From positions 372,001 to 436,000 of the forward strand of contig NZ_JBFUPK010000002.1 in NCBI RefSeq assembly GCF_041355105.1: a stretch of DNA of 64,000 bases. Direction: 5' to 3'. This DNA is from Terriglobus sp. RCC_193. GTDB taxonomy: Bacteria > Acidobacteriota > Terriglobia > Terriglobales > Acidobacteriaceae. The notes beneath the pieces were generated by a model. The model worked only from the letters and a program-made list of their open reading frames with translations, was not told the DNA's origin and searched no databases. Of this stretch, positions 2,242 through 4,638 are shown one piece after another. Every line of letters starts with the position of its first letter. Position 1 is the stretch's first letter. The position numbers were made by a program, and so were the translations under genes.

Positions 2242-4638
2242 ATGATCACTCTTGCAGCCAACGCAACCAGGATGATCGCGCTTACCGCAGAGGCGGACCT
2301 GTCGCTCGATGAGCAGCAGTGCCGCCTCAGCGAGGCGTTGACCGAACAGTTTGGAAAGGGCGCTTACGGTGAGCCGCAGTTTTATCTCATCGAAACCTTC
2401 CCGACGTACATCATCGCTCGCGGCCCTGAAGAGAAGCTCTTCAAGATCGGCTACACGATGAGCGATGACAACACGGTCACGTATGCGGATGCACAGGAAG
2501 TCGAGCGCGCGTATGTCCCGGTTGCTACGGCTGCGGAGTTTGACTTCACGGCGGCAGAAGCTGCTGCTGAGACTGACGCGTTTCCTATCGTGATCATGAA
2601 GGCCGGATGGGGTAAGGGCGCTCTCAACGGTAAGGCTGTCGATCACTACTATCCACCTGAGTTCGTAAAAGAGTTGGCGCTTGCCGCAGAGGCGCACACG
2701 GTACCTTTCGGGCGTCGTCATCCCGATCAGCGCGGCCCTGATCCCACAGGCGCTAACGATCCAGAGCGGATCGCTGGCTTCGTCCAGGGCGGCCTGTTTC
2801 ACGGAAATGAGGCGCGTGGCTCGGTGCAGTTGTTCGGTGCGGAGGCCGATCTGCGCAGCAAGCTCCATGAAGCAAGGCAGGCAGGTAAGGCCGACGTTTT
2901 CGCAGTGTCGGCACTCCATCTCTCTTCGTATAAGTCGGGCGTCGTTGAAGGGCGTAAGTGCCAGATCGCCGACAAGCTCATCAAGCTCTATTCCGTTGAC
3001 CTCGTCGGTCGCGGCGGGGCGGGTGGCCGTTTTCTGGCCGCTCAAGCCGCGTATGGCGACGACGTCACCACCGCGCAGGAAAGCGCAGTGAAACATCAAC
3101 AGCCCGGTATCTCGCCCAAGCGGACATCGACCGGCAACCCAGGCGCGCCGGAGAAGGTCGCCGTAGGAGCCAAAATGAAGGATTTTTTGCTTCGCCTTCT
3201 GAATCAACTGAAGGAGAAGGACGCCTCCACGGCTGCCGCTCTCACCACGAAGCTGCAGCTTGCTGCCGAAGCGGATTATGACGCGCTCGGCATTGAAATC
3301 GGCAATGCGCTTGCCTCTACCGGAACGACTGCCATCACCGCTGAAGCGCAGGCCGTATTGGATGACATTCACCGCGAACGCAGCCGCAACCGTATCGAGA
3401 CGAAGCTCTCAATCAGCAAGCTGCCGGAACCCGCGAAGACTCTTGCGCGTAGTCACCTTGAAGCACGCTTGACTGCTGAGGCTGATCTTGCCGATACCAC
3501 GATTGACACGGAGATCAGCACTACGCGGGAAGCCTTCGCTGCGATGATGCAGTCGCCGGTTCGTCACAGCGCCCGTATCGGCCTGGAAACCATCGACAAG
3601 GTGCGCCTTGCCGCTGAATGCCTACTCGATGTGAAGTCTGCTAAGGGGCAGGGTGTGACTCCCTTCAAAGGTATCCGTGATGCCTACGTCACGATTACTG
3701 GCGACTCTGAGTTGAAGTTTCAGGGTGGTATGTTCGCGCTCTCCGCAGAAGCAATCGCGTCTGACACCTTCCCGCTGATTATGCAGGATGCGATGCATAA
3801 GAAGCTGTTGGAGCAATACGCGGAGGAGACCTCCACAGACAAGCTCAACCAGCTCGTCACCTTCGGCAGCGCAAGCGACTTCCGCAATCAGTATCGCGAG
3901 CGCCTGGGTGGCCTATCTGAACTGCCTGTCGTGAATGAAAACGACGCGTATGTTGAGATGGCGTATCCCACAGACGAGGGTGTCAGCTACGCAGTGTCCA
4001 CGCGTGGCGGCGTTCTGACGATCAGCCGGCGAACCATCATCAACGACGATTCGAGTGTTGTGCAGCGCTTCCCTGGTATGCAGGCGCGTGCAGCACGTAA
4101 CACGTTGCGCACCTTCCTCACGCAGCGTTTTGTCACGAATCCAAACTATGGTGGCGATGCTGTTGCCATGTTCCATGCGAACCATGCGAACCTCTACAGC
4201 GGCGCACTCAGCACCGCCAACCTGAAGATCGCGCAGACCTCGCTGCGTCGCAAGACGGAGCCGAACTCTGGCGCGCCGCTCGACATGGACTTGAACTGGA
4301 TCATGGTGCCTCCTGAACTGGAAGGCACTGCGATTGAGATCAACAACACACAGGCCGCTGGCAATGGCTTCTATCAGCGGTTCGGTGCCAACAATGAACG
4401 GATCATCGTCAACGCTCGGCTCGCCGACGTGGATGACTGGTTCTATGGCGCTTCTGCGGCATCGTTCCCGTTCATTGAGGTTGGCTTCCTGAATGGTCAG
4501 CAGGAGCCGGAGCTGTTCACTTCCAACGATCCCACGCAGGGCAAGGCGTTCTCGAACGACCAGGCACAGTTCAAGGTGCGCTTCGAGTTCGGCGGCACCT
4601 TCACGGACTATCGCGGTATCGGTAAGTTCGGCAACTAA
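2242..4638 (+). CDS. Fused prohead protease - scaffold - major capsid protein
   Basis: A 798-residue polyprotein. Residues 1-113 form a small N-terminal domain; residues about 114-271 resemble a prohead protease of the Mu gpI / T4 gp21 type, with a candidate catalytic His in GRRHPDQRG, a candidate Ser in FAVSALHLS, and the closing SVDLVGRGGAGG stretch typical of these proteases. Residues about 312-440 are Lys/Glu/Ala-rich and helical, as expected for an internal scaffold. From about residue 443 the sequence is a major capsid protein of the Mu gpT/HK97-fold type (conserved MFHANHANL and MVPPELEG segments). ATG 2242 is chosen because it follows the previous stop by one base behind AAGGAGA; the upstream in-frame ATG 2200 lies inside the preceding gene. 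An internal start at 3175 could also yield scaffold-capsid alone (see separate entry). Confidence 0.8.
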   Translation: MITLAANATRMIALTAEADLSLDEQQCRLSEALTEQFGKGAYGEPQFYLIETFPTYIIARGPEEKLFKIGYTMSDDNTVTYADAQEVERAYVPVATAAEFDFTAAEAAAETDAFPIVIMKAGWGKGALNGKAVDHYYPPEFVKELALAAEAHTVPFGRRHPDQRGPDPTGANDPERIAGFVQGGLFHGNEARGSVQLFGAEADLRSKLHEARQAGKADVFAVSALHLSSYKSGVVEGRKCQIADKLIKLYSVDLVGRGGAGGRFLAAQAAYGDDVTTAQESAVKHQQPGISPKRTSTGNPGAPEKVAVGAKMKDFLLRLLNQLKEKDASTAAALTTKLQLAAEADYDALGIEIGNALASTGTTAITAEAQAVLDDIHRERSRNRIETKLSISKLPEPAKTLARSHLEARLTAEADLADTTIDTEISTTREAFAAMMQSPVRHSARIGLETIDKVRLAAECLLDVKSAKGQGVTPFKGIRDAYVTITGDSELKFQGGMFALSAEAIASDTFPLIMQDAMHKKLLEQYAEETSTDKLNQLVTFGSASDFRNQYRERLGGLSELPVVNENDAYVEMAYPTDEGVSYAVSTRGGVLTISRRTIINDDSSVVQRFPGMQARAARNTLRTFLTQRFVTNPNYGGDAVAMFHANHANLYSGALSTANLKIAQTSLRRKTEPNSGAPLDMDLNWIMVPPELEGTAIEINNTQAAGNGFYQRFGANNERIIVNARLADVDDWFYGASAASFPFIEVGFLNGQQEPELFTSNDPTQGKAFSNDQAQFKVRFEFGGTFTDYRGIGKFGN
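3163..3177 (+). promoter_or_regulatory. Internal ribosome binding site and in-frame start for scaffold-capsid
   Basis: GTAGGAG followed by CCAAA and ATG (start 3175) lies in frame inside the protease-capsid gene, at codon 312. The spacing is ideal for initiation. The product would be 487 residues, beginning MKDFLLRLL, exactly at the change from protease to scaffold-like sequence. Nested in-frame scaffold genes are established in lambda (C/Nu3) and Mu (I/Z). Use of this site here is inference. Confidence 0.55.

Follow-up and report, generated by a model that had tools for sequence, protein, structure and literature searches.

How can a phage build its head from a single gene that joins protease, scaffold and capsid protein in one reading frame? 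Such tripartite genes pose a puzzle, since a protease on each of several hundred subunits would crowd the shell and leave a large excess of protease. A gene of this kind is found in a stretch of 64,000 nucleotides from Terriglobus sp. RCC_193 (the window, that is, the whole stretch of DNA that was analysed). A conserved second start inside the gene would solve the crowding puzzle, and it predicts two products, the short one beginning at a domain border.

The fused gene and its domains

The gene is an uninterrupted ORF of 798 codons plus a stop (positions 2242–4638; this and all features below lie on the plus strand). Upstream of it are a portal-like ORF (PHROG 10963), a head-morphogenesis ORF (PHROG 2468) and an ORF of 107 aa, and downstream a tail-completion-like gene and a tail-protein-like gene. 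Together with these neighbours, the fusion ORF is the head part of a prophage.

The full-length protein was modelled with AlphaFold2 from 47 sequences (mean pLDDT 82.1, pTM 0.47). From the N-terminus onwards, the model has a small domain, a domain rich in beta strands, stretches of low confidence, helices from aa 306 to ~490, and a capsid domain. The small alpha/beta domain (aa 22–87; 2305–2502) came without a database name, function or partner. The beta-rich part contains the protease domain (aa 113–265; 2578–3036). It is followed by a linker (aa 266–311; 3037–3174) that is mostly of low confidence, with pLDDT values below 50 at aa 268–278 and aa 294–308. The next section (aa 312–500; 3175–3741) is mainly helix in the model up to aa 490, and its helix content and position suggest the role of a scaffold. 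The remainder is the major capsid protein domain (aa 505–798; 3754–4635).

The protease part had no match in Pfam or NCBIfam, and its sole PHROG match was PHROG 29592, a family of unknown function. Because the sequence libraries gave no informative match, a fold search was required. The VIA structure list for the whole model covered the capsid part alone, and the protease (aa 106–272) was therefore modelled separately, with a pLDDT of 92.5. Its best match in the PDB was T4 gp21 (5jbl; Foldseek E = 7.8e-4; Z = 10.6, rmsd 3.6, 131 aligned), followed by herpesvirus proteases with Z values up to 7.9. Viral models labelled as capsid maturation or prohead protease also resembled it. Judged from its predicted structure, the protease thus belongs to the T4 gp21/herpesvirus assemblin fold. 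Conserved positions suggest a putative catalytic site, with Ser223 (2908–2910) as candidate catalytic serine and Asp253 (2998–3000) as candidate active-site residue, both invariant in 47 of 47 sequences. Histidine (RRHP in the window) was frequent among the 47 sequences, yet did not form a single invariant column.

The capsid part matched PF25209 (aa 503–793) with 118.2 bits at a cut-off of 27, the sole Pfam match of the fusion above cut-off. Structural comparison of the model gave the HK97 fold (Foldseek, lowest E = 1.0e-9; Z = 14.8 for an encapsulin). The two NCBIfam models of fused proteins, NF045541 and NF045540, both matched (E = 6.8e-56 and 4.1e-47). At 190.1 bits (curated cut-off 525) and 161.2 bits (curated cut-off 475), these matches stayed well below the threshold. 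By these profile scores, the fusion of the window is related to the NF045541/NF045540 proteins, but is not a member by the cut-off rule. Hence, the ORF, the PF25209 match and the fold models bear out the initial annotation, which had read a protease, a helical scaffold-like section and a full capsid protein in one frame.

The PF25209 capsid protein also occurs in another setting. In two Acidobacteria genomes, a PF25209 ORF stands alone (L176:3878-5071, the same locus as L005, and L175:3908-5077) behind a helix-turn-helix regulator, with an S24-like trace and an RRM protein in L176. The profiles used here found no protease at either locus. These lone ORFs may encode a domesticated, encapsulin-like shell.

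The nested start and its two predicted products

The initial annotation had pointed to an in-frame ATG with AGGAG at the scaffold boundary, and such a site is indeed present. The nested ATG (Met312, codon 312; 3175–3177) is preceded by AGGAG, an internal Shine-Dalgarno sequence (3165–3169), at a spacer of 5 nt. In the AlphaFold2 model, Met312 lies at the end of the disordered linker, on the border to the helices. Between 3175 and the capsid domain there is no stop codon, so the nested product (3175–4638) would be scaffold plus capsid, not scaffold alone. Its predicted length is 487 aa. The computed masses of 86.4 kDa for the full-length and 53.3 kDa for the nested product agree with the earlier estimates of ~85 and 52 kDa.

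The fusion ORF has 15 in-frame ATGs, including the first, and codon 312 was the only one listed with a match of at least 5 nt to TAAGGAGGT. Across the whole window, a 5-nt match at a distance of 4–10 nt precedes 22 of the 1142 ATGs on the plus strand. Given this background and 14 internal ATGs, one such site in the ORF is not rare by chance. Taken as a single sequence, the ATG3175 site is weak evidence; its location and its conservation in relatives raise it above chance.

We consider it very probable that translation of this late prophage gene begins at two in-frame starts, and that a long and a short form are co-assembled in one procapsid, with the long form in the minority, and then cleaved. 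Ribosomes starting at ATG2242 would produce the protease-scaffold-capsid protein of 86 kDa, while ribosomes recruited to ATG3175 by the internal AGGAG would produce the scaffold-capsid protein of 53 kDa. Both forms would enter the same procapsid, where the scaffold section would act like the delta domain of HK97. The short form would build most of the shell, and the few long subunits would carry the protease domains inside it. Subsequently, the protease would remove the scaffold and itself, such that the capsid domain remains. A rough filling estimate for a T = 7 procapsid, with an assumed 415 copies and an assumed radius of 20–21.5 nm, speaks for the short form as the main subunit. If all subunits carried residues 1–500, these would occupy 65–80% of the cavity, versus 25–31% for residues 312–500.

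Alternatively, internal initiation might be real, but with both forms present in similar amounts or the long form as the major one, in which case the short form would merely dilute the protease or trim the packing. A possible Shine-Dalgarno sequence of the full-length start, AAGGAG, is located within the end of the upstream ORF (1917–2240) at 2223–2228, and its duplex energy of −8.8 kcal/mol is stronger than the −6.5 kcal/mol of the nested AGGAG. The unpaired value of the nested site is 0.34 (not open), versus 0.49 for the full-length start. However, AAGGAG lies 13 nt before ATG2242, which is a long spacing. The full-length start thus has the longer match at a long distance, and the nested start the shorter match at 5 nt. 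Judged from the sequence, the strengths of the start sites in the window do not mark the short form as the major one, as the initial annotation had proposed with much scaffold-capsid and little protease fusion. In a second family of fusions, strong sites precede both the full-length and the nested start in many ORFs, which also fits similar amounts of the two forms. Neither the long spacing nor the cavity estimate is decisive here. We regard similar amounts or a predominance of the long form as unlikely, though to be taken seriously, and favour a procapsid made mostly of the short form.

Conservation of the nested start in related fusions

If the two-start reading is right, the nested start should not be confined to the window. 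Relatives were drawn from viral contigs and genomes. A scan of viral contigs with the single protein gave 6 stretches, none of which was confirmed as a relative, while a scan with an alignment yielded 132 relatives; 80 of these were retained. From 201 loci initially, 24 without a match to the capsid profiles used here were dropped. The resulting 177 capsid ORFs formed 82 clusters at 70% identity, which are still mutually related. Two representatives (L009 and L189), in which the capsid is preceded by fewer than 270 codons, were left out, which resulted in 80 fusions. In three of these (L046, L067 and L092), the match to the capsid profile was fragmentary, and the capsid start was set at 330 codons before the end.

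Several loci depart from the fused layout. Some of those dropped encode the protease in a gene of its own, such as L152 and L165, where it ends 9 and 7 bases, respectively, before the next ORF, which the capsid profiles did not match; others have a different downstream part. At L299, L304 and several of L164-L174, protease and scaffold match the second fusion family and the C-terminal part is unmatched by the capsid profiles; possibly, the same kind of fusion ends in a different capsid protein here. At L004 and L012 (G049, contig C1), the capsid part of a relative is broken by a shift of frame that comes with a TGA, which reflects either a decayed prophage or a sequencing error.

Sites were scored in a linker window of 100–215 codons before the capsid domain, with limits that were set after seeing the site list. 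There, 56 of the 80 non-redundant fusions have an in-frame ATG preceded by at least 5 nt of Shine-Dalgarno match, and in 35 of 80 the match reaches at least 6 nt. Control windows of the same size contained a site with at least 5 nt in only 7/80 (protease) and in 5/78 and 0/74 (capsid) cases. When AGGAG occurred in the linker, it was followed by an in-frame ATG at 4–10 nt in 44 of 83 cases and by an ATG out of frame in 3. The corresponding in-frame counts were 2/75 in the capsid region and 4/25 in the protease region. The mean best duplex energy for ATG starts was −7.47 in the linker, compared to −2.7 to −3.0 in the controls. Positions −14 to +5 were less paired than control positions in 64/80 fusions, a value that is biased because the site was picked by energy.

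These counts bear on a second alternative, in which all capsid subunits derive from the full-length precursor and the AGGAG and ATG are either a relic left where separate genes once met or a by-product of encoding Lys/Gly-Glu and Met. The fusion is, after all, one open frame, and tripartite genes have been described without an internal start, at least in the available part of that source (PMC8508860). Moreover, 200 synonymous-codon shuffles within each ORF still yielded a mean of 21.9/80 fusions with at least 5 nt (maximum 29), and a mean of 9.8 with at least 6 nt (maximum 16). The protein sequence therefore explains part of the signal. It does not explain all of it, since the observed 56 fusions exceed every one of the 200 shuffles. 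Similarly, shuffling gave a mean duplex energy of −5.98 (best of 40 shuffles: −6.43), versus the observed −7.47.

The codons at the boundary provide further evidence against a relic or by-product. In seven aligned proteins with 28–42% identity to the window, Met312 is invariant while the preceding residues are variable. We also examined an alignment of 56 proteins of the window's family that was made without using the Shine-Dalgarno sequence, and is hence independent of the choice of the linker window. In this alignment, 30 of the 56 proteins have Met in the exact column of Met312. Gly codons located 3 or 4 codons before the aligned Met were GGA in 29 of 30 cases, versus 13.3% of the Gly codons in the fusion ORFs. 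Given the divergence of these proteins, relics would have decayed at synonymous sites. In the second fusion family, the anchor column has Met in 9 of 25 proteins, and offers no Gly codons to test. Together with the cavity filling estimated for residues 1–500 on every subunit, these results make it very improbable that the shell is built from full-length precursors only. A pause in translation at the domain border, giving the protease time to fold ahead of the scaffold, with an incidental ATG, would suit the location of the site, but is scarcely credible given the tie between linker AGGAG and in-frame ATG at start spacing (44 versus 3 out of frame), while the best-scoring picks with another start codon (GTG 5 and TTG 1 of 80) count little, as the search admitted start codons only.

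The two-start reading does not depend on every relative passing the strict rule (ATG, at least 5 nt), which 24 of the 80 fusions fail. Most of these misses had, by eye, a 4-nt match or a GTG or TTG start near the boundary (e.g., L047, L073 and L150; in L047 the GTG is preceded by AAGGAG), whereas inspection by eye of L130, L134 and L187 revealed no convincing nested start near the boundary. Nine named phages showed a similar range. S1 and Solano have AGGAG before ATG, Pd_22F has AAGGAG before TTG, and LPPA33, LLS, PSTCR8lys, PBb001 and Mae-JY22 have a 4-nt match; Vibrio 1.083.O was the only one of the nine with no site. In a later set, 369 genomes of another class gave 29 loci, with 8 ORFs of at least 500 codons that matched the profiles. 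Six were scored by a rule fixed beforehand, without control windows or a redundancy check against the first set, and L299 and L304, with no capsid match, were not scored. Four of the six passed (L296, L297, L298 and L301), while L295 and L302 have 4-nt sites; in L302, GTG/TTG codons slightly upstream score a little above the boundary ATG.

The initial annotation had proposed comparing the internal site in relatives, where its loss would have spoken against it. Instead, 56/80 fusions keep both the ATG and a match of at least 5 nt, and the synonymous codons are constrained. As far as sequence comparison can tell, a nested start with a Shine-Dalgarno sequence at the scaffold start, as found in nested protease/scaffold genes, is thus kept in many relatives. 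Only 2 codons ahead of the capsid profile start, several fusions (L015, L016, L019, L025 and others) also have another in-frame ATG, preceded by AAGGA at 4 nt, which is probably a by-product of the coded sequence.

Comparison with known head genes

Gifsy-2 reportedly fuses the coding regions for protease, scaffold and capsid protein. Phage MD8 has a single gene for the same three parts, and the available part of its description nowhere mentions an internal start (PMC8508860). Tripartite genes of this Gifsy-2/MD8 type (NF045540, NF045541; PHROG 133, 4523) share the three-part layout with the window. However, they have a ClpP-like protease, whereas the window protease is of the T4 gp21/assemblin type and not ClpP-like. 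The combination of a protease-capsid fusion with a nested start, put forward in the initial annotation, is thus present in both its elements, but the fusion itself had already been described, as the MD8 gene and the NCBIfam names indicate.

Fusions with a ClpP-type protease may have a nested start as well. Among 20 non-redundant Gifsy-2-like ORFs (reduced from 80), the border Met is kept in 20/20, with GAGGA or AGGAG ~9–10 nt upstream, and the Glu codon within this site is GAG in 19/19 cases versus 40.5% of Glu codons. Since these ORFs are closely related and the site lies far from the Met, this is suggestive of a nested start, and their internal sites are weaker. There may be an even chance that a nested scaffold-capsid start belongs in general to genes that fuse protease, scaffold and capsid protein, and that it is conserved in them; fusions with at least two unrelated kinds of protease, gp21-type and ClpP-type, would share it. 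The second start would then set the number of protease-bearing subunits per capsid, and thereby permit gene fusion.

The initial annotation had named lambda C/Nu3 as the precedent. This comparison is valid, in that the scaffold start of lambda is likewise annotated in frame inside a gene for protease and scaffold. It differs in that the capsid protein E is separate and the protease is, by annotation, of the S49 kind. Genes I, Z and T of phage Mu (NC_000929) are nearer. Z is annotated as starting inside the protease gene I, with AGGAG before it, and the capsid domain of the window is akin to that of Mu (hhalign 95.5%; Mu capsid 9jod, E = 3.8e-8), with a score for the Mu gpT family PF10124 of 14.1 bits, below the gathering cut-off of 20.1. 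T begins 4 bases before I ends, but it is a separate capsid gene, so Z is scaffold only. A kinship of the window protease with Mu I was not supported. The profile comparison by hhalign gave no match between the two protease families, merely a 0.6% match to the capsid part. The window gene thus looks like Mu I, Z and T run together, with a kinship that appears limited to the capsid part. For PaMx73, too, a Mu-like protease gene has been described with a putative internal start, in the available part of that source (PMC4378225).

Our search of the literature, which did not extend to the Gifsy-2 paper and most subscription papers, where this may differ, found no mention of internal initiation in any gene that fuses protease, scaffold and capsid protein. 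Protease-capsid fusions (Gifsy-2, MD8, NCBIfam) and nested scaffold starts (lambda, Mu) are known already. Apparently new, in the literature searched, are the nested start within a fusion and a nested product that comprises scaffold and capsid. If such a product is made, the annotation of fused capsid genes misses a product, and capsids produced for structural studies should be expressed with the short form included.

Parallels exist for the parts of this arrangement. HK97 gp5 consists of the delta domain and the capsid protein. Its scaffold is N-terminal to the capsid protein, like in the predicted nested product, although the HK97 protease is a separate gene (see also PMC8508860, available part). 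The herpesvirus proteases share a similar fold with the window protease in our structure comparison. In herpesviruses, UL26.5 is an in-frame scaffold nested inside the protease-scaffold gene UL26, but it is made from a separate internal transcript and the capsid protein is unfused. The same nested logic would thus recur in lambda, Mu and the herpesviruses.
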